Shown here piece by piece: positions 11,381-24,820 of a stretch of DNA of 64,000 nt. How positions within the stretch are numbered: the stretch's first letter is position 1; each line of letters begins with the position of its first letter. Below the pieces are notes generated by a model that was not told the origin of the DNA, made no database searches, and was given only the letters and a program-made list of their open reading frames with translations. The stretch is from contig DATDFQ010000044.1 in the NCBI GenBank assembly GCA_036522515.1, positions 1-64,000 of the forward strand. The letters run 5' to 3'. The position numbers were made by a program, and so were the translations under genes. The DNA comes from Bacteroidota bacterium (GTDB taxonomy: Bacteria; Bacteroidota; Ignavibacteria; UBA10030; SZUA-254).

Positions 11381-14332
11381 ATGATCGGCCAGACTGTCTC
11401 CCACTATAAGATACTCGAGAAACTCGGCGAAGGCGGCATGGGCATCGTCTACAAGGCCCAGGATACCGAACTCGACCGGGTGGTCGCTCTGAAGTTTCTT
11501 CCCCATTACCTGGCCTCCGATGCGGTCGAGAAGGAGCGGTTTTACCATGAAGCCCGGGCCGCGTCTTCGCTCAACCATCCCAATATCGCGACCATTTATG
11601 AGATAAAGGAGTTTGAGAACCGGCTCTACCTTGCCATGGAATTCATTGAGGGGAAGACGCTGAAAGCCGTCGCTTCCAGGGAAATCCTCTCTCAGCAGAA
11701 AACCCTCGATATCGCGATCCAGGTCTGCGACGGACTCGCGGCTGCGCATGAGAAGGGGGTTGTCCACCGCGACATCAAGTCGGACAACATCATGATCACA
11801 CCGAAGGGCCAGGTGAAAATCATGGACTTCGGGCTCGCAAAGGTTAAGGGGGCGACAAAACTCACAAAGGCGGGGTCGACCCTCGGAACGGCCGCCTACA
11901 TGTCGCCCGAACAGGCGCAGGGCGAAGAGGTCGATCAACGATCCGATATTTTTTCCTTCGGCGTGGTGCTCTACGAACTGGCCACCGGCCACCTGCCGTT
12001 CTATGCGGAACACCAGGCGGCGCTCATCTACTCTCTGATCAACGAAGACCCGCAACCCCTGGCACGCTACAACGACAAAACATCCGCCGAAATGGAGCGG
12101 ATTGTCCTCAAGGCTCTCGCCAAGGACAGGGAGGACCGGTACCAGCATGTGGACGACCTGCTGGCAGATCTGCGGCGTGAGCGGAAGAGCCTGGAGTATG
12201 CCCGGACGGGATACGCCCGCTCAACGACCGCCCCGATGCCCGCCGCGGCTCCTCAAAAAACGGGACGCCTTCTGAAGCTCCTCATACCGGTTGGAACGCT
12301 AGCCATCCTGATCGCTATTGCAATCGTGTTCAACCCGTTCAACTTTCAGATCAGCACGCAGAAAAGCAACGCAGCATCGGAACCGAGCTCGCTGGCGGTG
12401 ATGTACTTCGAGAATATTCCCGACCCGGAGGACAAAGACCACACCGGCGAGATGTTATCCAATTTGTTGATCACCGCGCTCTTTCAGACCAGGAACCTGG
12501 ACGTCATCAGCCGCGAGAGGCTGTACGATATCCGGAAAGAACTGGGGGAGGGCGATTCGAAAACGATCCCTCCTTCGCTCGCGACAAAGATCGCCCAAAG
12601 GGCGGGAGTCTCGATGATGTTGTTGGGGAGTATCCTGCAAAAGGAACCCACGCTGGCGGTCACCTACCGCCTCCTTGAAGTTCAGAGCGGAAAAATCCTG
12701 AGCACCCAGCGGCTTTCGGGATTTTCAAAGGAGAGAATCTTTTCCCTCGCCGACACATTGGCGCTCCTCGTCAAGGGGGATTTGAACCTGACCGGGCAGA
12801 CTGATACAAGACCGATAGCCGAGGCTACCACACGCTCGACCGAAGCCTACCGTTCGTATCTGGAGGGTGTGGACCTCATTGAGAAATTTTCAGTTAATGA
12901 AGCGGAGGCGGCGCTGAAGAGGGCAATTGAACTGGATAGCAATTTCGCGATGGCATACAATTGGCTGACGGTAGTGGAATTCAGGTTGGGTAAAAACACG
13001 GAAGCGGACGCCGCCATGCGCAGAGCGTATGAACTCCGGAACAACGTAGGCGAGAGGGAGCGCCTCTTGATTGAAGGATCGTATGCGCGAAACGTCGGGC
13101 AGGATCCCGCTTCGACGAAACGAATCCTCGAACAATTGATTGAGAAGTATCCCGGAGAACAGGCTGCATACCTGGTCTTGGCGCTCACGTACTACCAACC
13201 CTTCTGTGACCCCGAGGGAGCAATCCGGGTTATTCAAGCCGGTTTGAAACGTGATCCGATGGATAAATCTCTATGGAATATCCTCGCGTACGGTTATGCC
13301 GCGCTCGACAAACGGCAGGATGCCTTTGCGGCGCTCGATCACTACTTAAACCTTGCACCCGGCGAACCAAACCCCTACGACTCCAAAGGCGATTTGTACC
13401 TTCTATTCGGGGAGCGGGATTCTGCGATGAGCTGGTACCGGAAAGCGGTCTCTATGCGATCGGATTTCGGATCGAACATCCCCCTCGGCTTCGATGCGAT
13501 GAACCACGGGGATTACGCTCGCGCCCGAGAGTACATGATGGAATTGCACAGGCCGCGTGATCCTTCTGCGCTTTTTTCCGCCCACCAGGGCAAATTGACA
13601 GAGGCGCGTCGGCGACTGATTGAAAACCTGAATGCACATCACGAAAAACAATCCCTTGATCTGCTCCCGGATGATTGGCTCCAATTGCTCCTGAACGCGT
13701 ATGAATTGGGCGACTATCCCATGATGACAAAGTACGCATGGTTAAGGTCGGAGCAGCTCAGAAAGAACCCCGCCGACCTGGCGTATGGCCGGGACGCATT
13801 GGCCTGGGCGTATTTGAAATCCGGCGATTCGGCCATGTACAGGAAAACGCTTGAGGATCTCAAAGGAGTGGTTTCGAGGCAGATACCCCGTATTCAAGCG
13901 GCCAGGAGTTACACGTGGGCGTTATTCTCCTTCGAGCAGGGAAATTATCGGGCCGCTGCGGAGCAATATCGGGAGGCATTACAAATATTTCACGTGAAGG
14001 CAGCGCCGCAGCTGTTTTTTGGGCGAAGTCTTCTGAGCTCCGGTCAGGTGGAGGAGGCGGTGAAAGAATTCCGCCGGGTCGCAGAGTGGATCCCGAGCGG
14101 GTACATCGATCCCGTGGTCGATCTGTTGCCGACAGGCTGGTATGCGCCGGTCGCCTCGGTCAAGGCGCACTACTGGCTCGGCGTCGCGTACGAAAAAGAA
14201 GGCCGGACCGCAGATGCGGTGAAAGAGTATGCAAAATTTCTGGAGATCTGGAAGGACGCCGATTTCAAATCGAAGGAATTGGACGATGCAAAGGCGCGTT
14301 ATGCAAAGCTCAAGGGAATCAGCTTGAATTAA
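11381..14332 (+). CDS. Ser/Thr protein kinase, membrane-anchored, with TolB-like and TPR domains
   Basis: A 983-residue protein. The kinase domain (about 9-275) carries GEGGMGIVYK, Lys38, HRDIKSDN (Asp131) and DFG (Asp149). A transmembrane helix at about 295-316 is followed by a TolB/FlgO-like alpha-beta domain (about 330-480, beginning SLAVMYFENIPD) of the sort found in TPR-containing kinases and cyclases. Residues about 490-980 are tetratricopeptide repeats, e.g. around AYRSYLEGVDLIEKF and AVKEYAKFLEIWKD. The layout suggests a receptor kinase that senses a protein partner through the TPRs. The first 60 residues are nearly those of the kinase at 384, so the two are paralogues with exchanged C-terminal sensors. 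It has its own promoter. Confidence 0.95.
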   Translation: MIGQTVSHYKILEKLGEGGMGIVYKAQDTELDRVVALKFLPHYLASDAVEKERFYHEARAASSLNHPNIATIYEIKEFENRLYLAMEFIEGKTLKAVASREILSQQKTLDIAIQVCDGLAAAHEKGVVHRDIKSDNIMITPKGQVKIMDFGLAKVKGATKLTKAGSTLGTAAYMSPEQAQGEEVDQRSDIFSFGVVLYELATGHLPFYAEHQAALIYSLINEDPQPLARYNDKTSAEMERIVLKALAKDREDRYQHVDDLLADLRRERKSLEYARTGYARSTTAPMPAAAPQKTGRLLKLLIPVGTLAILIAIAIVFNPFNFQISTQKSNAASEPSSLAVMYFENIPDPEDKDHTGEMLSNLLITALFQTRNLDVISRERLYDIRKELGEGDSKTIPPSLATKIAQRAGVSMMLLGSILQKEPTLAVTYRLLEVQSGKILSTQRLSGFSKERIFSLADTLALLVKGDLNLTGQTDTRPIAEATTRSTEAYRSYLEGVDLIEKFSVNEAEAALKRAIELDSNFAMAYNWLTVVEFRLGKNTEADAAMRRAYELRNNVGERERLLIEGSYARNVGQDPASTKRILEQLIEKYPGEQAAYLVLALTYYQPFCDPEGAIRVIQAGLKRDPMDKSLWNILAYGYAALDKRQDAFAALDHYLNLAPGEPNPYDSKGDLYLLFGERDSAMSWYRKAVSMRSDFGSNIPLGFDAMNHGDYARAREYMMELHRPRDPSALFSAHQGKLTEARRRLIENLNAHHEKQSLDLLPDDWLQLLLNAYELGDYPMMTKYAWLRSEQLRKNPADLAYGRDALAWAYLKSGDSAMYRKTLEDLKGVVSRQIPRIQAARSYTWALFSFEQGNYRAAAEQYREALQIFHVKAAPQLFFGRSLLSSGQVEEAVKEFRRVAEWIPSGYIDPVVDLLPTGWYAPVASVKAHYWLGVAYEKEGRTADAVKEYAKFLEIWKDADFKSKELDDAKARYAKLKGISLN

Positions 14333-14413: not shown

Positions 14414-17400
14414 ATGAGGGCTCTTCTTTCCACCCTCGCAATTCCCATAATTATCTCCTGCACCTCCGCCCAGACGACACGATTCGACGAGGTGTGGCGG
14501 TGGGTGGAGTTTACGACCGTCTCGGGCCTTCCCTCGAACCGGATCATGGATGTGGTGGAGACGGGCGACAGCACGATCTGGGCCCTCACGAGCGCCGGAT
14601 TGGCCTGGTATGACGGTTTCCGCTGGAATCATGTCGACAGCTCGATGGGCCTCCCCGTCGACCGTTTCGAGGCGGCGAAGCGCTTCGGCGCGAACCAACT
14701 CCTGCTGGTCTCGGGCGTTACATATTATCTGGGAGACAGGCGCGGCTTTTCCCCGATCTCTCTCAATTACGCCACGGACCTGGCGACCTTCCCGCCCGAC
14801 GCCCTTCTGATGAAGGATCACTCCTCGATCCTGATTTACCGGAACGGGAAATCGTCTCCCTTCACTCCTTCATCGAACCTGACGGCGGGCAAGACAATTT
14901 CCCTCTGGGATACGAGGGGCGGCAGCGTATGGGCCAACCTCTTCAGCGGAATGTACCGCTTCGAGTCCGGTGAATGGAAAATGAAGATCGCCTGCGATTT
15001 CACGCCGGGGGCCGGGAGCCTCCTTGCGGAAAACGAACACGGAACCGGGATCACCTGCCTGACCTACCCTTTCGGGATGAGGGGATTGTGGGAATGGCAC
15101 AACGGATCGTCGCCGGTGCGGAACCCGTCCGAGAGGCCCGACGACGTCAAATCGCTCGATGTCGGCGTCGACGACGAGGCGATCGTCGCCTACCGCTCCG
15201 GCGACGTCAAGATCCGGCAGCAGGGCGCATGGTCTCTGTTGCAGCTCATGAATCCGGATATCCGGGATATCGAATTCGTAAAGTTCAGAACGAACCGGGA
15301 TCTCTGGATCGGCACCGATCACGGCCTGTTCCTCTATAAGAGATCGTCCTCCCGCTGGAGGTTTCTCAAACACGATTCGCCCGATCTGCGGAACTATACG
15401 AACGAGCTTTTGAAAACCCGGGATGGCAGGCTCTGGGTGGCGACGAGCGACGGCGTGGAGGTCCACAACCCGGACGGGTCGGTCCGCTACGTTTCCGGGA
15501 TCAACTCCGAACCGCTCTACGTCGTCACGGGTCTCGGCGAGGACGAGCAGGGAGGCGTATGGATCTCGAGCGGATCGTCGTTCGACGGGGTCTACCGGTG
15601 GGACGGCTCGCGATGGAAACATTTCGAAGTGAGTCCGGGCCGCGGGGGAATCCACATCCACAAGATACGAAAAGACCGGGAGGGGCGTCTCTGGTTCCTG
15701 GGAATGGGAAAGAACGCGCCGGGACGCGAGCGGCTCGAACCGGGGGCGTTCCTCCGGTCGGGGAATGAGTTCATCCCGTGGGGAGTGAATGAGGGATTGA
15801 CCAGCGGCCGGGTCTACGCGTTCGCCGAGGCGAGGGACGGATCGTTATGGTTCGGAACGGGTGCCGGACTCAGCCGGTGGAAACCGGGAGCTCCGGGGCG
15901 CGATGTCCCCGACCCCCGGAACGGCACCTGGACGCACTGGAAGTTCGGAACCGGGTTGCGCACCAAGAGGGTATTCACCCTTGCGATCGACAGCGCCCAG
16001 CGGCCCTGGTTTGGCGACGCATCCACCCTCGGTGTCGGAGTGGGGTATGTCGACCGGAACGACAGCGTCCATTACCTGACGGTGGCGGACGGTTTGATCG
16101 ACGATTATATCTGGGATATGAATGTCGACCCGACGGGGAGACTCTGGATTGCGACGGCGGACGGATTGTGCAGTTACGCGAACAACCGGTGGTCGACATT
16201 CGACAGGCTCTCGGGGTTGCAACATCCGGTGCTCTGGCCCGTGTTGCCGCTCGCGGGCGAAGTGGCGGTCGGCACACAGGGAGGGGGCGTCGCGATTCTC
16301 AATCTCGACGCCAGCAACACGCCCGCCCCCCGCGTCGTGCTCGACGTTCCAAGAACGGAAGGAGGGAATATCCTGCTTCGGTGGCGGGCCCACGCCTATT
16401 GGGGAGAACTCGACCCGACGGAAATCATGACCCGGTTCGAACTTCAGGGAGGAAGCTGGTCCGCCTGGAGCAGAACGAATGAACACACGTTCGTCGATCT
16501 TGATCCGGGATCGTACACCTACCGCGTGCAGGCGAGGGGTCTGTTCGGCAATTATACCCCGGAGGGGGCCGGAGGATCATTCCTGGTGCCGCTGCCGATG
16601 TATCTCCGGCCGGGGTTTTTGATACCGACCGGACTTCTCTCTCTCGCCGTCGTCGCTCTCGGCTCCGTGCTCCTCATCAGGAAGCGCAACCATGATCTCG
16701 CCCTCCGAAAAAGCGAGGAAAAATTCCGTACGGTCACGGAGATGACTTCCTCGGCGATTTTCATTTACGGGGAGAACCGGCTGCTCTTCGTCAACTCGGG
16801 GGCCGAAAACCTCACGGGGTTCTCCCGGGCCGAGCTTCTTGCGAAAAGCTACTTTGACCTGATTCACCCCGAGGAGCGGGAGCTGCTTCGGTCGAAGGAG
16901 CAGGAGAAGGCGGAAAGCGCCGGCCCGGCCCAGCGTTACGAAGCCCGAATCATCACGAAGGACGGACGGGAGCGCTGGGTCGATTGCACCTCCGGGTGGA
17001 TTCAATTCCAGGGGCATCCCGTTCGCCTGGCGACCTCGTTCGAGATTACCGAACGGAAGCACGCGGAAGGGAAGCTTCGCTCCCTCACCTCCGAGCTCTC
17101 CATGACCGAGGAGCGGGAGCGCCGCCGCATGGCGACGTATCTGCACGATGTCATCGGGCAGACCCTTGCGCTCGGCAAGATGAAGATCCGCAGCCTCGAG
17201 AAATCCGGACTCCCCGATGCCCACCAGAAGCTCCTCGGCGACCTCCGCGACCTCATCGATCAATCGATCACCAACACGCAAACGCTGACCTTTGAACTCT
17301 GCCCGCCGATCCTCTACGAGCTCAGCTTCGAGGCCGCCATCGGATGGCTGACCGAACGGATGGAGAACCAGCACGGGCTCAGGATTGAATTTCACGACGA

Positions 17401-17734
17401 CCGGAACCCCAAGCAGCTTTCTGAAAACGTGAAAGTATTGCTGTTTCATGCGGTAAGGGAGGTGCTCGTCAACATCATCAAGCACGCCGAAGCGGAACAT
17501 GCCGCCGTTTCACTCTCCCGCGCGCGCGACGCGATCCAGATCGACATCACCGACGACGGGATCGGAATCGACGCCGCGCGCACGTCGAAATCCTCGTTCA
17601 ACGGAGGAGGATTTGGATTGTTCAATATCCGTGAACGGCTGGCCTACCTCGGCGGCCGGCTGGAGATAGGTCCGCACAACGGCGGGGGAACCCGCGTCAC
17701 GATCCTCGCGCCGCTGGAGGGCGCCGGCGCATGA
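14414..17734 (+). CDS. Propeller-type sensor histidine kinase with PAS domain
   Basis: About 1106 residues: signal peptide (MRALLSTLAIPIIIS; the Cys after it could also be a lipobox), a ligand-sensing double propeller of the two-component-regulator-propeller type (about 25-640, repeats such as LWIGTDHGLFLY, LWVATSDGVEV and LWIATADGLCSY), a Y_Y_Y domain (about 650-725), one transmembrane helix (about 735-757), a PAS domain (about 770-890), HisKA_3 with His911 in TYLHDVIGQ, and a HATPase domain ending the protein (NIIKHAEAE, DDGIGID, GGGFGLFNIRERL). The start could instead be TTG 14399; ATG 14414 gives the better signal peptide. It overlaps the response regulator by four bases, so they form a pair. 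Confidence 0.93.
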   Translation: MRALLSTLAIPIIISCTSAQTTRFDEVWRWVEFTTVSGLPSNRIMDVVETGDSTIWALTSAGLAWYDGFRWNHVDSSMGLPVDRFEAAKRFGANQLLLVSGVTYYLGDRRGFSPISLNYATDLATFPPDALLMKDHSSILIYRNGKSSPFTPSSNLTAGKTISLWDTRGGSVWANLFSGMYRFESGEWKMKIACDFTPGAGSLLAENEHGTGITCLTYPFGMRGLWEWHNGSSPVRNPSERPDDVKSLDVGVDDEAIVAYRSGDVKIRQQGAWSLLQLMNPDIRDIEFVKFRTNRDLWIGTDHGLFLYKRSSSRWRFLKHDSPDLRNYTNELLKTRDGRLWVATSDGVEVHNPDGSVRYVSGINSEPLYVVTGLGEDEQGGVWISSGSSFDGVYRWDGSRWKHFEVSPGRGGIHIHKIRKDREGRLWFLGMGKNAPGRERLEPGAFLRSGNEFIPWGVNEGLTSGRVYAFAEARDGSLWFGTGAGLSRWKPGAPGRDVPDPRNGTWTHWKFGTGLRTKRVFTLAIDSAQRPWFGDASTLGVGVGYVDRNDSVHYLTVADGLIDDYIWDMNVDPTGRLWIATADGLCSYANNRWSTFDRLSGLQHPVLWPVLPLAGEVAVGTQGGGVAILNLDASNTPAPRVVLDVPRTEGGNILLRWRAHAYWGELDPTEIMTRFELQGGSWSAWSRTNEHTFVDLDPGSYTYRVQARGLFGNYTPEGAGGSFLVPLPMYLRPGFLIPTGLLSLAVVALGSVLLIRKRNHDLALRKSEEKFRTVTEMTSSAIFIYGENRLLFVNSGAENLTGFSRAELLAKSYFDLIHPEERELLRSKEQEKAESAGPAQRYEARIITKDGRERWVDCTSGWIQFQGHPVRLATSFEITERKHAEGKLRSLTSELSMTEERERRRMATYLHDVIGQTLALGKMKIRSLEKSGLPDAHQKLLGDLRDLIDQSITNTQTLTFELCPPILYELSFEAAIGWLTERMENQHGLRIEFHDDRNPKQLSENVKVLLFHAVREVLVNIIKHAEAEHAAVSLSRARDAIQIDITDDGIGIDAARTSKSSFNGGGFGLFNIRERLAYLGGRLEIGPHNGGGTRVTILAPLEGAGA

Positions 17735-18396
17735 ACCAGGAGAAACCCTCCGTGCGGATCCTCCTCGCAGACGACCACCAGCTCGTCCGCGAGGGCTTGC
17801 GAAGCATCCTGGAAAACGAGCTCCAGATGACGATCATCGGCCAGGCGGAGACCGGCCGTGAAACCATACGGCTCGCCCACTCCCTCAAGCCCGACGTCGT
17901 GATCATGGATATCTCGATGCCCGACCTGAACGGGATCGAGGCGACGCGCCAGATCATCGCCCAGGTCGAGGGGGTCCGCGTTATCGCCCTCTCGATGCAC
18001 GCCGACAAGCGGTACGTGGGCGAGATGCTCTCCGCCGGAGCGACCGGGTATCTTCTGAAACATAGCGCGCTCGACGAACTGGAGCGCGCGATCCAAACCG
18101 TCCTCGCGGGCAAGATCTACGTCAGTCCGGATATTGCCGGGATCGTCGTCCAGGATTACCTCCAGCATCTTTCGTCATCGCCCGCCGCCCAGCCTTCACA
18201 ACTCACTGCACGGGAGCGGGAGATCCTCCAGCTCATCGCCGAAGGCACCTCCACCAAGGATATCGCCGCACGGCTCCATGTGAGCGTTCCCACGATCGAC
18301 ACGCACAAACAGCATATTATGGAGAAGCTGAATCTCTATAGTATCGCCGAACTCACCAAGTATGCCATCCGGGCGGGTTTAACCTCGCTCGAGTAG
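17731..18396 (+). CDS. NarL/LuxR family response regulator
   Basis: A 221-residue protein with an N-terminal receiver (about 7-125): acidic pair Asp14-Asp15 in LLADDHQLVREGL, phospho-acceptor Asp60 in VIMDISMPD, and Lys in GYLLKHS. A LuxR-type helix-turn-helix (about 155-218) contains LTAREREILQLIAEG and DIAARLHVSVPTIDTH. Its ATG lies inside the stop of the propeller histidine kinase (ATGA), so the kinase is its partner. The next genes encode surface proteins, and a 29-base palindrome in the following promoter region is a candidate target. Confidence 0.96.
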   Translation: MNQEKPSVRILLADDHQLVREGLRSILENELQMTIIGQAETGRETIRLAHSLKPDVVIMDISMPDLNGIEATRQIIAQVEGVRVIALSMHADKRYVGEMLSAGATGYLLKHSALDELERAIQTVLAGKIYVSPDIAGIVVQDYLQHLSSSPAAQPSQLTAREREILQLIAEGTSTKDIAARLHVSVPTIDTHKQHIMEKLNLYSIAELTKYAIRAGLTSLE

Positions 18397-18517
18397 CAGC
18401 CCCAAGAGGCAAACCCTGCTCTAAAGCGCCCGTTTCGCCGTTTCCGCCGTTCCCGGGCTCGTTCCGCCCCGCCCTTCCCCTCATGTATTTCCAACCCCGG
18501 AATCATGGAATCCACTA

Positions 18518-18547
18518 TTGTGGGACCCCCTCCTCTTCTGTACTTTG
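18518..18547 (+). promoter_or_regulatory. Bacteroidota-type promoter before the stand-alone sorting-domain gene
   Basis: TTG (18518-18520), exactly 20 bases, then TACTTTG (18541-18547), one T short of the TAnnTTTG consensus. It lies 106 bases before the start of the small gene. Bases 18397-18517 show nothing else. Confidence 0.45.
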
Positions 18548-18552
18548 CACTC

Positions 18553-18581
18553 CGATTACACGCGTCAGACGCGCGTAATCG
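18553..18581. promoter_or_regulatory. 29-base palindrome, candidate operator
   Basis: The left arm CGATTAC-A-CGCGTC and the right arm GACGCG-C-GTAATCG surround a single central base; only the A/C pair is mismatched. It starts five bases after the putative -7 element, thus over the expected transcription start. It may be an operator (for example for the adjacent LuxR-type regulator) or a hairpin at the 5' end of the mRNA. Confidence 0.55.
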
Positions 18582-18653
18582 CCGCCCGGTCTCCGGGTTT
18601 CAACTCAAAAAGAGCCAAAAGGTCTGGTGCACGCTTACAGAGGAGAAATAGTC

Positions 18654-18956
18654 ATGGGAGGGGAACTCGCATCAAGGTTAACCTATCCGGATCCTTTCAA
18701 TCCGTCCGGGATCGATTTTGATCTGCCGGACAAAGCCCTGGTAACACTGACGATTCTCGACACCGCCGGACAGGAGGTAACGACGCTCATCGACAACGTC
18801 GTTTACGACGCCGGCACGCACCACGTGGAAGTCGGGTCGTCTCAATGGGCGCAAAATCCGGGCAACGCGCAGGGAATTTATTTTTACAGGCTCTCCGCCG
18901 AGTACGGCGGAAAAAGCTATATCGATACGAAGAAAATCATCCTCGCAAGGCCGTGA
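18654..18956 (+). CDS. Stand-alone type IX-like / FlgD-like C-terminal sorting domain
   Basis: About 100 residues consisting almost wholly of the domain that normally ends large secreted proteins of this lineage: a degenerate start LASRLTYPDPFNPSGIDFDL, then LTILDTAGQEVTTLID, GTHHVEVGSSQW, GIYFYRL and the basic end KIILARP. There is no signal peptide and no cargo. The start is set by AGGAG at 18641-18645. It is followed 65 bases later by the giant PKD protein, which has its own copy. It may be a remnant of a once longer gene or a free-standing domain; the good Shine-Dalgarno and promoter-like sequence argue that it is expressed. Confidence 0.75.
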   Translation: MGGELASRLTYPDPFNPSGIDFDLPDKALVTLTILDTAGQEVTTLIDNVVYDAGTHHVEVGSSQWAQNPGNAQGIYFYRLSAEYGGKSYIDTKKIILARP

Positions 18957-19021
18957 CCGAGGCAGCATGGCCGGGCGAAGCAACAAACCGTTCATCAATT
19001 AGTTCATCGAAAGGAAGTATC

Positions 19022-22000
19022 ATGAAACTTCTTCGACTCATTGTTCTGCTCGTCTGTTGCCGGCTGACACTTCTCATCGCCTACAGCCAGAATTGCCCTC
19101 CCGGCAGCCCATACCCGAACCCCCAGATCGTCCCTTCCTTCGCGCCGGATTCGAGCTGCCTCGACAGCGCCCGGAACGGGACCCAACCCGACGATAAACA
19201 TTCATGTCTCGGGGCGTGCGAGCTCTCCTACACCAGCTACTGTACGATGCTCGTGCCCGGGGATACGTATCTCTGGACAGTGGTGGGCGGAACCATCGTC
19301 GGAAGCGCGACTTCCAACTGTGTCACGGTCTTATGGGGGCCCGCGGGACCGGGTACGATCTCCATCACCGAGACGACCGCGATGGGGTGCGTCGCCACCA
19401 AGGAACAATGCGTCAAGATTATCGATTCGCCCGTGGCCGCATTCAGCGTCCCTTCCAATGTCTGCAAGAATGTTCCTCTTAACTTCATCAACCAGTCTCT
19501 GAACGCCCTCACCTATTTCTGGAACTTCGGCGACGGAAACACCTCCACCGCGGTAAACCCGACGCACGCCTATACGACCTCGGGGCCGAAGACCATCACC
19601 CTCGTGGCCTACAACAAGTGCGGATGCAAGGATTCGGTCACCCACGTGGTTACGGTGAGCACCCTCGACGGGCCGGTCATCACGTGCCCGGCGACGGTCT
19701 GCGCGGGAGCGAAGGCGTGTTACTCGACGACCGGATGCCCGACAGCGGTCTATAACTGGACGGTGAACGGGGGAATTATCGTCGGACCCACAAACCAGAG
19801 CACCATCTGCGTGCAATGGGGCCCCGGACCGCAAGGGACGGTCTCGGTCTATGTCACCGGATGCGGAAACGTCTGTCAGGACACGACCACCGTAATCGTT
19901 CCGATTATCTCGACGAACGGACCGATCACGGGAAACCTGGTTGTCTGCCCGAGCACGAACGAAGTTTACACGCTCCCCCTCTGGCCCGGCACCTACTACA
20001 ACTGGGTGCTTTCAGGCGGCGGGAACATCATTTCGGGGACGAATACCAACGCGATCCAGATTCACTGGGGGACGACTCCCGGAACATACACCCTGACGGC
20101 GACATGGAACAATATTCTGCTCGGTTGCGGCGGGACGTCGACGATCATGATCAACGTGCGCGACGTGTTCCAGATGTTCGGGTTGCCCGGACCCTTCTGC
20201 ATCGGCTCGACGTCGAGCTATTTCGCGAGCGCCAACGCGAATTGGACTGTCACCGGGGGTACGTTCACGGGGAACGGGACCAACTCGATCGTCGTCACGT
20301 GGACGACGGGCGGAGCGCACACCGTGACCGCGGTGCCTCTGAATCCCACCCTCTTCTGTAATCCGAGCGTCACCATGAATGTCACGGTCACGCAGGTTCC
20401 CCCCGCTGTTGCGATCACCGGACCGCCGGTCATTTGCCCCGGAGGGACCTACCAGTACACGGCGACGCCCTCGGGCCCCGGGTTCACATTCCTATGGACC
20501 GTCACCGGAGGAACGATCATCGGTTCTCCCTCGGCGAATCCGGTATCGGTGATGTGGTCCGGACCGGGCACCATCTCCGTCAAACAGGTCATGACCGTTC
20601 CGCCATACTGCGCTTCGGCTCCGATCTCCATCCCCGTGACGGTTCTTTCGATTCCCAACATCACGGGCAGCAATGTCGCGTGCATGGATCAGACGTCGAT
20701 CTTCACCGCGGGCGGCCCGAATCCCGGCATCGTCTATACGTGGTCAATTGTCGACGGGTCGGGGAACCCCTCTCCCTCGGGAAGCATCGTCTCCGGCCAG
20801 GGAACGAACCAGATCACCGTTCTGTGGCACGGCCCAGGTGGACCGGCCGTCGTCAAGCTGAAAGTGTGCGCCTCCACGCTCACATTCCCTGTGACGGTGA
20901 ATCCGAAACCGACTCCCACGATTTCCATGACCGGCAAGGTCTGTAACCCCGGAGGCCAGGTTATTCTCACCTCGAGTGTCGGGAATTCGTATCAGTGGAA
21001 CACTGGGGCAAACACACAGCAGATCATTGTTACCGCGCCCGGATCATACTGGGTGAAAGTGACGAACGCTTTCGGATGCTCGGATACCGCGCGGATCACG
21101 GTGCCTGTGAGCCCCGGTCCGGTTGCGAGCATCTCCACTCCCAATCCGACGAGCTATTGCTCTCCGCCGCCGCCCTTTGTCGACACGCTCTACGCGCTGC
21201 AAGGGCCCGGGTACACGTATCTCTGGTCGCCGGGGAATCAGACAACTCCGACCATTACAGTATCCGCGACCGGAACCTATTTTGTGGTCGTCACGGACGC
21301 AAACGGCTGCTCTTCCGTTTCGAACCCGATTACGATTACATCCGCCCCATGCACCGGCGGCGGTCCGTGTACACCGACCGGGACGATCAGCTTTACCATC
21401 ACCCAGCCAGTCTGCAACCCCGTGCAGTTTAACGGATCGACCACCGGCGGAATCACCAGCACAAGCTGGAATTTCGGAGATCCCGCAAGTCTGGGGAACA
21501 ACACCTCGGCGCTCACCAACCCGACACACCTGTTCACCCAGGCGGGATGGTACACCGTAACCTACAGCGGCCTCGATCCGAGCAATTGCCCGATCAGCGT
21601 CTCGCACCCCGTCGCCGTCCCGCTTGCTGCCGACTTCAGCTTCGCGGGGGTGTGCGGCGTGATGCAATTCACCGATCTCTCGACGTTCCTCCCGCCCAAC
21701 TCCATTACCTCGTGGAACTGGACCTTCACGGGAGGGACGCCCGGGTCTTCGACTGCGCAAAATCCGTCCTCGACCTTTACCACTCCAGGGCCGCACAATG
21801 TGACCCTGACGGTTTCGAACGGCACCTGCATCGTATCGATCACGAAAACCGTCAACGTTTCCGCTCCCCCGAGCGCGGCGTTTATTCTCCCCGCCACCGC
21901 GTGCGCGGGAACGGACGTGCCGCTCTCCGGCTCGGGCGCGCCTGTGGTGAACTGGCTCTGGAATTTCGGCGACAGCGCCACCTCGGGCCTGCAGAACACC

Positions 22001-24820
22001 TCGCATGCCTGGGCGGTCCCCGGGACGTATGTTGTCTCTCTGACGGTCAAGGATTCGAACGGCTGCACGAGCACGGTAATGCACTCGATTACGATTACCG
22101 CTCCCTCCACCAACTGTCCGATCAACCCGACGAACCCGCCGCCGATCTGCGCGGGCGGATCGGTGCTGCTCACCTCGTCTCCGGCGAGCGGCTATCAGTG
22201 GCAATTGAACGGGGTCAATATCGGCGGCGCGACCCTCCAGACGTACTCCGCGACCGTGACGGGAACCTACACCGTCATCGACACGGACGCGGGAGGATGC
22301 ATCTGTATATCGCCTCCGGTCTCGGTCGTTGTGAATCCTCTCCCGCCCGCCATCATTACACCGAGCAGCACTCCGGTGATCTGCGGATCGGGCCTGATCA
22401 CGCTCAACGCTCCGGCCGGGCCGTACTCGTATCTCTGGTCGGACGCCTCTACGACCCAGAGCATCACCGTCCTCCTGAACACGCCGGGAGCCTATACCTA
22501 CACGGTGACGGTGACCGATTCCAATTCGCCTCCATGCTCCGCGGTCTCGGCGCCATTCACGGTAAACGTCTACCCGGTGCCGCCTCCGCCGGTTATTACG
22601 GCGAGCGGTCCGACGGCGCTCTGCAAAGGCGACTCCGTGACGCTGACCAGTTCGTACCCGACGAACAATGTCTGGAACACGGGGGCCACAACCCAGAGCA
22701 TCACGGTGACCCTGCCGGGTGTCTACACCGTGACGGTCACGACCCCGCATGGATGCAGCGCCACCGGGGCCATTACTGTGACTTCGAACGTTCCGAACCT
22801 CAGTCTCTATCCGTTCGGATGCGATCTGCTCTGCGATAGCGTCAAGATCCCGGGCCCGATCGGTCCGTTCATCGGCTACTACACCTACCAGTGGTTCTTC
22901 AACAACGTTCCCATCCCGCCGCCGAACGGGACGAACGACACGCTCACTCCGATCGGCAGCGGGACCTATACGCTGATCCTTACCGGTCCCGGCCCGACAT
23001 TCTGCAAAGACACGTCGGGTCCGTATAACCTGACCCTGAAGGATTGCGACAGCCTGCATTGCCACGGAAAGCTCTGCGGAAGAAAATGGAACGACGCGAA
23101 CGGGAATCACAAGTTCAATTACGGAACGGAGGTGGGAATCGCGAACTGGAGGATCTGCCTGGTGAAGTGCAACATCGATCACTATCCCACGAAGGATACG
23201 ATTGCGTGCACCATGACGGATTCTCTCGGGTTCTATTGCTTCTATAACCTCTGCGCCGGGGAGTATTGCGTGGTCGAAGAGGGCAGGCCGGGATGGCAGC
23301 AGACCTGGCCCGTCTCGCCGCCGTTCTATCACGTCACGATCACCGACAGCGGGACGATCAGCGGGCTCGACTTCGGCAACAAGAAGAAGTGGATCAACAT
23401 CATCATCACGCACGATACGGTCGGCATCGGCCACGATACGTATCTGACGGCGGGATCGGTGATACCGACGCCCTACCCGTGGCCGGTCAAGATCTCCTAT
23501 CTGAACAGCGACGGTGCGACGTGGCGGGTGCTGTTCGACGGATTCCTGACCGACAACATCAGCCCGTTCCCGAACACCCCGATCCCCTCGTGCGTGCCGG
23601 GCACCTACTCCATCGTGCGGAAAGAGGTGGGGAATTACAAGTTCGACAGGATCTATCTGAACGACTCGTTGCGTTCCGATCATGGAGATTCGATCGTGGT
23701 CAGCCTTCCCGATTCGACGGACGGGGCGACGATCATCTTCCTCAACGTGTTCGATCCGGATACCACGCTGCGATACCGGACGTTCACGTTGGAACAGCTC
23801 GCAGATCCGAGTCAGGTAAAGCCCGTGAAGAGGGCGAAGCCCGGGAAACCGGTCCTGATGCCGAACACCGCCAATGTCATCGATGAAGTCCTCAAGCAGG
23901 GCGGCTCCTTGCTCGTCGGTTCACCCGATCAGCTCAACTCCGCCGGGAAGGTGAAGGGGTATCTGATGCCCCACAGTCAGAGCGATGTCTTTAAGACATT
24001 CAACACGAAAGGATTCTTGCAGACGGGCAAACCGAGAGGGTTCGACTTCATCAAGGGCAAGCCGATCCTCAAGCGTCAGAAATCGCTTCCCGCGACGAAG
24101 TTCAATAACCGGCTCATGGCGAATCTCCTCGCCTTGCAGGTGAACATCGCCGCAAGCGAGACGGATCCGCCGAAGACGCCTGCCGGCTTCGGGGACCTCG
24201 TCTATGACAACGGCGGAGGGGATCCGCTGGAAGGGATGACGCTCAACGATATCGCCGATTACGCCAGCGACCTGATGACCAATTGGGAGTACAACGATAC
24301 CACGTTGTACATCAATCTCAATACGGCTGTCGAGCTGATCAACGGCGCCTTCTCGAAGCCTCTCCCCTTCGACGGGTCCGATACGGCTGTCTGGATTCCC
24401 GGCAAGCTCCAGCTCAGAGGGGCGAAGGCTCTCATGGACGTGCCGTTCCTGAAGGCCGTGATGGGCAATGCTCCGACGACGAGGAAGATCAAGCCCACAC
24501 CTGCGTCCCTGGTGCCGTCTCAGTTTGTCCTGTACCAGAATTACCCGAATCCGTTCAACCCGACGACGACGATTTCCTTCTCGTTGCCTTCGGAGGCGAC
24601 CGTAACGCTCAGGATCTATAACGTCCTCGGCCAGGTCGTCGCCACGTTGATCAACCGCGAGGTGTTGGATGAGGGGGATTCACAGGTGGAATTCGACGCC
24701 CATCGGCTCTCCTCGGGCGTCTACTTCTACCAGCTCTCCGCCGAGACAACGCCGGATGCGGAGAACGGTATTACAGGTCAGACCTACTTCAGCGTGAAGA
24801 AGATGTTGTTGGTGAGGTAG
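19022..24820 (+). CDS. Giant secreted PKD/Ig-like repeat protein with sorting domain
   Basis: 1932 residues. Signal peptide MKLLRLIVLLVCC...AYSQ. Residues about 30-1340 are a chain of PKD and related Ig-like beta-sandwich repeats, several with the PKD hallmark WNFGD (for example LTYFWNFGDGNTST and VNWLWNFGDSATS), very rich in Thr, Gly, Pro and Cys. About 1347-1450 is an SdrD-B/Cna-B-like domain (GKLCGRKWNDANGNHKFNYG then GLDFGNKKK). About 1450-1825 is a linker region. About 1833-1932 is the C-terminal sorting domain, starting LYQNYPNPFNPTTTISFSL and ending SVKKMLLVR. It is likely exported by a type IX-like route and cell-surface attached, for adhesion or gliding. ATG 19022 has AAGGAAG 5 bases upstream; the frame opens 59 codons earlier but that part is not credible. 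Confidence 0.93.
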   Translation: MKLLRLIVLLVCCRLTLLIAYSQNCPPGSPYPNPQIVPSFAPDSSCLDSARNGTQPDDKHSCLGACELSYTSYCTMLVPGDTYLWTVVGGTIVGSATSNCVTVLWGPAGPGTISITETTAMGCVATKEQCVKIIDSPVAAFSVPSNVCKNVPLNFINQSLNALTYFWNFGDGNTSTAVNPTHAYTTSGPKTITLVAYNKCGCKDSVTHVVTVSTLDGPVITCPATVCAGAKACYSTTGCPTAVYNWTVNGGIIVGPTNQSTICVQWGPGPQGTVSVYVTGCGNVCQDTTTVIVPIISTNGPITGNLVVCPSTNEVYTLPLWPGTYYNWVLSGGGNIISGTNTNAIQIHWGTTPGTYTLTATWNNILLGCGGTSTIMINVRDVFQMFGLPGPFCIGSTSSYFASANANWTVTGGTFTGNGTNSIVVTWTTGGAHTVTAVPLNPTLFCNPSVTMNVTVTQVPPAVAITGPPVICPGGTYQYTATPSGPGFTFLWTVTGGTIIGSPSANPVSVMWSGPGTISVKQVMTVPPYCASAPISIPVTVLSIPNITGSNVACMDQTSIFTAGGPNPGIVYTWSIVDGSGNPSPSGSIVSGQGTNQITVLWHGPGGPAVVKLKVCASTLTFPVTVNPKPTPTISMTGKVCNPGGQVILTSSVGNSYQWNTGANTQQIIVTAPGSYWVKVTNAFGCSDTARITVPVSPGPVASISTPNPTSYCSPPPPFVDTLYALQGPGYTYLWSPGNQTTPTITVSATGTYFVVVTDANGCSSVSNPITITSAPCTGGGPCTPTGTISFTITQPVCNPVQFNGSTTGGITSTSWNFGDPASLGNNTSALTNPTHLFTQAGWYTVTYSGLDPSNCPISVSHPVAVPLAADFSFAGVCGVMQFTDLSTFLPPNSITSWNWTFTGGTPGSSTAQNPSSTFTTPGPHNVTLTVSNGTCIVSITKTVNVSAPPSAAFILPATACAGTDVPLSGSGAPVVNWLWNFGDSATSGLQNTSHAWAVPGTYVVSLTVKDSNGCTSTVMHSITITAPSTNCPINPTNPPPICAGGSVLLTSSPASGYQWQLNGVNIGGATLQTYSATVTGTYTVIDTDAGGCICISPPVSVVVNPLPPAIITPSSTPVICGSGLITLNAPAGPYSYLWSDASTTQSITVLLNTPGAYTYTVTVTDSNSPPCSAVSAPFTVNVYPVPPPPVITASGPTALCKGDSVTLTSSYPTNNVWNTGATTQSITVTLPGVYTVTVTTPHGCSATGAITVTSNVPNLSLYPFGCDLLCDSVKIPGPIGPFIGYYTYQWFFNNVPIPPPNGTNDTLTPIGSGTYTLILTGPGPTFCKDTSGPYNLTLKDCDSLHCHGKLCGRKWNDANGNHKFNYGTEVGIANWRICLVKCNIDHYPTKDTIACTMTDSLGFYCFYNLCAGEYCVVEEGRPGWQQTWPVSPPFYHVTITDSGTISGLDFGNKKKWINIIITHDTVGIGHDTYLTAGSVIPTPYPWPVKISYLNSDGATWRVLFDGFLTDNISPFPNTPIPSCVPGTYSIVRKEVGNYKFDRIYLNDSLRSDHGDSIVVSLPDSTDGATIIFLNVFDPDTTLRYRTFTLEQLADPSQVKPVKRAKPGKPVLMPNTANVIDEVLKQGGSLLVGSPDQLNSAGKVKGYLMPHSQSDVFKTFNTKGFLQTGKPRGFDFIKGKPILKRQKSLPATKFNNRLMANLLALQVNIAASETDPPKTPAGFGDLVYDNGGGDPLEGMTLNDIADYASDLMTNWEYNDTTLYINLNTAVELINGAFSKPLPFDGSDTAVWIPGKLQLRGAKALMDVPFLKAVMGNAPTTRKIKPTPASLVPSQFVLYQNYPNPFNPTTTISFSLPSEATVTLRIYNVLGQVVATLINREVLDEGDSQVEFDAHRLSSGVYFYQLSAETTPDAENGITGQTYFSVKKMLLVR

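Follow-up and report, generated by a model that had tools for sequence, protein, structure and literature searches.

The gene that follows the propeller kinase and NarL-type regulator described here encodes a lone T9SS-like sorting domain (CTD) with neither cargo nor signal peptide. Its best explanation, to which we assign a probability of roughly 0.45, is that a CTD has been domesticated and retained in the cytosol, where it would be the dedicated product of its own two-component system and, as we infer for the feedback, would tune that pathway. Slightly more tentatively, the propeller kinase, the NarL regulator and the signal-less CTD may be read as a three-gene module whose dedicated output, in some species the sole one predicted, is the CTD mimic, so that envelope sensing could be coupled to the production or traffic of type IX cargo from inside the cell. 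Sorting domains are known as export tags, and a conserved tag that lacks cargo and signal peptide and stands under its own sensor suggests reuse as an internal regulator.

The features of the locus are collected in Table 1, with positions in the window, i.e., the whole stretch of 64,000 nucleotides that was analysed. A preliminary description had reported the regulator, a free sorting domain of 100 residues and a PKD protein of 1932 residues, and reading frames together with Pfam/NCBIfam models placed all three where it had put them. The start of the regulator gene overlaps the stop of the kinase gene by 4 nt. Regulator identity is 83% within the same genus and 69–72% across other genera, and homologues of the kinase form the first gene of the triad in relatives. 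The PKD protein matches PKD_4 (E 8e-43) and, at its C-terminal end, Por_Secre_tail (E 9e-13); large CTD-bearing secreted proteins are also encoded in the clusters of genomes G009 and G003 (1963 and 1984 aa), and the G001 cluster has a frame of 1086 aa. In the window the lone gene is preceded by GAGGAGA, which resembles a ribosome-binding site. A gene that looks by eye like a Ser/Thr protein kinase with a repeat-like C-terminal part lies at 11381-14332 on the same strand and ends about 80 nt 5' of the sensor kinase.

Table 1. Genes and predicted regulatory elements of the locus, with positions in the window.
Feature	Position	Strand	Description
Sensor histidine kinase, membrane	14414..17734	+	1106 aa; Reg_prop two-component-propeller repeats, PAS, HisKA_3, HATPase_c (Pfam/NCBIfam)
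NarL/LuxR-type response regulator	17731..18396	+	221 aa; Response_reg receiver and GerE DNA-binding domain
Predicted regulator operator, near-palindrome AATCATGGAATCCACTATT	18501..18519	+	1 mismatch to AATCRTGGAWTCCAYGATT, which also occurs in the regulator-lone gaps of other genera
Predicted -10-like box TACTTT	18541..18546	+	21 nt 3' of the dyad
Lone CTD-like gene	18654..18956	+	100 aa; without signal peptide; seven-stranded beta sandwich predicted
Giant secreted PKD/SdrD_B protein	19022..24820	+	1932 aa; signal peptide; own type A CTD at ~24533-24817

Annotation of the lone domain by single models is marginal, since NCBIfam TIGR04183 was barely passed (23.7 bits against a cut-off of 23) and Pfam FlgD_ig was matched weakly, at E 0.011. 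When 16 lone domains were set against 8 cargo CTDs in a profile-profile comparison, the probability was 99.9 and the E-value 9e-33, and by sequence the lone domain is clearly a relative of the T9SS type A sorting domains. The predicted structure has seven strands (pLDDT 82.5); a fold search returned common beta sandwiches and no CTD entry among the 50 matches listed. The CTD starts within about the first 10 residues in all 16 aligned rows, leaving no passenger, and the 100-aa protein of the window is the CTD alone, without the FimH-like N-terminal domain of the PorA type. The genome itself contains 143 matches to the lone domain, with the window copy in a 125-aa frame, whereas nearly all of the others terminate frames that measure some 200 aa or more. 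The few remaining short frames are C41 (211 aa), C52 (130), C13 (133), C10 (133), C1 (135, with a stop) and C12 (62), and of these C52, C13, C10 and C12 proved on inspection to be ordinary CTDs. Strong matches in long frames, such as G011:C56 (97.5 bits), come near the weakest lone copies, so that score alone is no separator. Comparison of two models does separate the groups: under leave-one-out scoring the lone model was preferred by all 20 lone domains and by none of 43 cargo CTDs, and in this scoring the lone domains are a subfamily of their own.

A hydropathy scan, made without SignalP, found no N-terminal signal-peptide-like hydrophobic stretch in any of the 20 lone copies; the gene that follows them usually has a signal-peptide-like N-terminus. 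The C-terminal motif [KR]hxxx[KR] is kept in 4 of 20 lone domains versus 43 of 43 cargo CTDs, a set that was chosen for a match near the C-terminus and thereby favours this pattern. In Porphyromonas gingivalis the region holding the motif matters for secretion, according to the accessible text of PMC11285876. Because signal peptides are absent throughout and the terminal motif is lost in 16 of the 20, a cytoplasmic role and location of the lone protein is likely, and the same two absences make it unlikely that the decoy or scaffold suggested in the preliminary description would act at the surface. Among the four copies with the motif is that of the window (KKIILAR followed by a final P, one extra residue), and a secretion-competent C-terminus is thus possible for this copy.

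By reading the regulator and kinase loci of the family (f1) and of the rest of the order, we collected 20 stand-alone homologues in 15 genomes that belong to three families (f1, f3 and f5) of one Ignavibacteria order. Twelve of these genomes are from f1 (G000, G001, G003, G004, G005, G006, G008 with two copies, G009, G011, G012 with five, G013 and G014), and the others are G021 (f3) and G023 and G028 (f5). In 18 of the 20 cases the regulator is followed, as far as these elements go, directly by the lone gene; they include G013, where a small ORF is inserted between the two, and one locus of G012 (L095, on C228), which combines an intact lone gene with a regulator frame interrupted by two stops and where no kinase was seen. 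In the two remaining cases, G014 and G003, regulator and lone gene are separated by a cargo gene. The linkage of the free domain to the two-component pair, proposed before any search, is therefore borne out, the stand-alone homologues standing nearly all beside the same type of kinase and regulator, and their recurrence shows that the observation is more than chance.

Two single loci may be recorded here. The inserted ORF of G013 (L067), in a regulator-lone gap of 963 nt, has 137-150 aa and looks GIY-YIG-like by eye. In G009 the lone frame (L065:11417-11695, the same as L113:7992-8270) contains no ATG, GTG or TTG from the preceding stop to where the conserved N-terminus begins; ATC stands at the position of the start codon, and AGGGG lies about 9 nt 5' of it, which points to either a sequence error or a rare start codon.

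The YPNPF stretch is lost in the f5 copies, which came to light only when the sequence downstream of the kinase homologues was read. At E <= 1e-20 the lone profile detected stand-alone members in 12 of the 15 genomes of f1, and the 83 remaining genomes of the order gave none, but it missed the f3 and f5 copies, which came via the kinase loci, and the distribution elsewhere is thus a lower bound. Across 391 genomes of the class, the sole match of this profile outside f1 at E <= 1e-24 was in G246, within a 1003-aa frame, and kinase homologues at E <= 1e-190 were confined to this order, whose members were included among the 391. A search with a six-row alignment gave 7 loci, all in metagenome-assembled genomes of Ignavibacteria or their kin; at one of them, L118, the match is an ordinary CTD within a frame of 325 aa. 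In f1, the lone gene is missing from ten propeller-kinase systems that have a separate regulator (L090 among them, at a contig edge), which indicates that this kinase type can work without it. On a regulator tree of 18 loci with and 15 without the lone gene, where L090 and L151 run into a contig end and may be miscounted as "without", the lone label required 3 changes as against a shuffled mean of 11.2, and none of 500 shuffles was as low; the lone gene is thus inherited with a regulator clade and sometimes lost.

The gap between regulator and lone gene contains a near-palindrome, AATCATGGAWTCCAYGATT, about 21 nt 5' of the -10-like box. This box, read as TACTTTG, resembles TAnnTTTG, the -7 box of the Bacteroidota; a strict sigma-70 consensus and terminator scan of 18380-19060 found no promoter and no terminator. 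With up to 3 mismatches allowed, the window has no second match to the dyad, where shuffles lead one to expect 0.04, and the 17-mer core of the dyad is the sole genome match at <=1 mismatch. The dyad was spotted by eye and the layout defined after seeing it, and both were then tested. At <=2 mismatches the dyad occurs in eight regulator-lone gaps (the window, G001, G009, G011, G005, G012:C585, G004:C24 and G008) and in one regulator gap without a lone gene (G006:C61). A dyad followed by a TA-box 20-22 nt further on is present in 14 of 17 gaps, the dyad lying 69-153 nt before the lone start. Tested gap by gap, 8 of 17 reached p<=0.025 and the other 9 ranged from 0.06 to 0.8; the pooled p of 3e-9 over the 17 gaps ignores their relatedness. 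Two further elements flank the dyad: a stretch like CATGWATTTCCAACCCC on its 5' side is conserved in several genera (e.g., window 18482-18500) and may be a second, weaker regulator site, and a strong inverted repeat, ATTACACGCGTCAGACGCGCGTAAT, lies at 18556-18580, within the putative 5' untranslated leader of the lone gene.

Genome-wide, at <=2 mismatches, there is a single site each in G000, G001, G009, G011, G005 and G004, that of the regulator-lone gap, and a single site in G003, just before the giant gene; by chance 0.13 sites per 3.5 Mb would be expected at two mismatches and even base composition. G012 has four matches, of which one lies in the C585 gap, one beside the C228 lone gene (between it and the next secreted gene) and at least two before secreted-protein genes, so that the lone gene is not always the sole target. 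Extra matches in G006:C2, G007, G008 and G013 fall inside reading frames, as chance matches would, and none was found at two mismatches in the genomes G002, G010 and G014. Among regulators with an assigned dyad, compared by eye, P, Q or T in the recognition helix goes with dyads of the type CAT(G/T)GA (TGG or TTG type) in 9 of 9 cases, and K goes with (C)AGG in 8 of 8. In each of the f5 genomes G023 and G028, the dyad type that belongs to the regulator there was found at <=2 mismatches in one place only, before the lone gene, and no cargo gene follows, which argues for the lone protein, not the cargo, as the constant output. The common dyad and promoter layout support an action of the regulator on these genes, and it is likely that the adjacent regulator switches on the lone gene.

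We propose that the fold of a sorting domain has been taken over for intracellular work, and that, in one Ignavibacteria order, the lone protein would be the third, dedicated component of a family of propeller-kinase/NarL-regulator systems. An envelope signal would be read by the sensor, whose outer propeller may, as the preliminary description supposed, monitor the surface built by these proteins, and the phosphorylated regulator would bind the dyad, which is predicted to overlap the -35 region before the lone gene. This would turn on a transcript with the lone domain as its first product; in most f1 loci a secreted surface protein would come next. Lacking a Sec signal and, in most copies, an intact terminal motif of the T9SS type, the lone domain would stay in the cytoplasm, where it would most likely tune the kinase or the regulator as an MgrB-like feedback protein or connector and so match cargo production to signalling. 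The gene itself, its conservation and linkage, the missing signal peptide, the loss of the motif and the shared dyad are seen in the sequence; regulator binding, cytoplasmic location, feedback action and direct target are all things that we infer here. The constant partner of the lone gene is the kinase-regulator pair, which favours a feedback or connector role in the cytoplasm.

Less probable, though the most serious of the alternatives, is that the lone protein is made together with CTD cargo as a cytoplasmic helper, that is, as a decoy or escort that acts before export and keeps the cargo, or a CTD-binding factor, competent. Most f1 loci do have a signal-peptide gene within about 260 nt after the lone gene, several of these genes end in a CTD, and the predicted lone fold is that of the cargo CTDs. 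Yet the cargo genes vary from locus to locus while the lone gene is constant, in f5 the lone gene is the sole predicted target, with no cargo downstream, and in the accessible text of PMC11285876 recognition of the CTD is described in the periplasm.

The lone protein might instead regulate the T9SS machine, e.g., its inner-membrane motor, from the cytoplasm rather than the two-component system, an idea that we consider rather unlikely. The translocon protein SprA is present in all 15 genomes of f1, and PorX of P. gingivalis binds the cytoplasmic domain of PorL, as far as PMC5005315 is accessible, so that regulatory input could reach the motor from the cytoplasmic side. However, the triad was not found in most relatives with many CTD proteins.

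A shade less likely still is a small CTD protein that is secreted or displayed at the surface and signals back to the kinase, in the manner of PorA acting on PorXY, after export that makes no use of a classical signal peptide. A large propeller forms part of the sensor, and the accessible text of PMC7712824 places PorA (246 aa) at the surface without the T9SS translocon and reports secretion of Fjoh_0547 in sprA and porV mutants. Such a protein would nevertheless need an unknown export route, and the missing signal peptides and terminal motifs of the lone copies weigh against it.

That the lone gene is a neutral remnant or spurious ORF from a decayed cargo gene, for which the marginal single-model annotation and the related domain in the gene downstream might speak, is very improbable, as the same position recurs in three families, the lone domains form their own subfamily, and dN/dS is 0.18 for G000-G001 (at a high synonymous distance of 1.4), 0.15 for G006-G013 and 0.14 for G023-G028. 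This recurrence and purifying selection tell against the remnant that the preliminary description had considered. It had also named homologues in which the same sequence ends a longer gene as an outcome that would count against a free domain; all 20 homologues of the subfamily stand alone, and the reading as the end of a longer gene is out. A frameshift fusion with the regulator or the PKD protein was rejected as unlikely because the gaps to the regulator are 117-979 nt. As judged by these comparisons, the lone gene is neither a remnant nor ordinary cargo and encodes a conserved, signal-less CTD protein.

In the open-licence PMC literature we came across no description of a lone CTD that lacks a signal peptide and neighbours a two-component system, and nothing in print on the control of type IX cargo expression in Ignavibacteria. 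With a candidate operator, a small soluble protein and a constant gene position, the locus offers handles on how this expression may be controlled.

Among known systems, the T9SS type A CTDs (TIGR04183/Por_Secre_tail) share the sequence family and, by prediction, the seven-strand sandwich with the lone domain, which keeps the YP[ND]PF...GIxFxLP and GxYxYR regions; unlike them, it is free-standing, signal-less, set apart as a subfamily, mostly without the basic-hydrophobic terminal motif, and tied to a regulator. The FlgD Ig-like domain and other small beta sandwiches show a weak sequence match and a similar fold, but this fold is common, and the lone gene has no flagellar or extracellular context. 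MgrB is the feedback small protein of the PhoQ/PhoP two-component system, and the lone protein would resemble proteins of this type as a small protein induced by a regulator, with feedback on its own system here proposed. The likeness is one of circuit position and not of kind, since MgrB is a membrane protein (47 aa, according to the accessible text of PMC8404706) whereas the lone protein is a predicted soluble beta sandwich of export origin. Fjoh_0547 of Flavobacterium johnsoniae, a CTD protein of 112 aa, has about the size of a bare CTD, but it is secreted, and the accessible text of PMC7712824 mentions no link to a two-component system. As a precedent for action of a CTD protein on a two-component system, PorA (PGN_0123) with PorXY-SigP in P. 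gingivalis comes nearest (PMC7712824, accessible text), PorA being likewise a small CTD protein bearing on a system that controls T9SS-related genes; it carries a FimH-like domain in addition to its signal peptide and is found at the surface, whereas the lone protein is predicted to be cytoplasmic and is encoded beside its pair.
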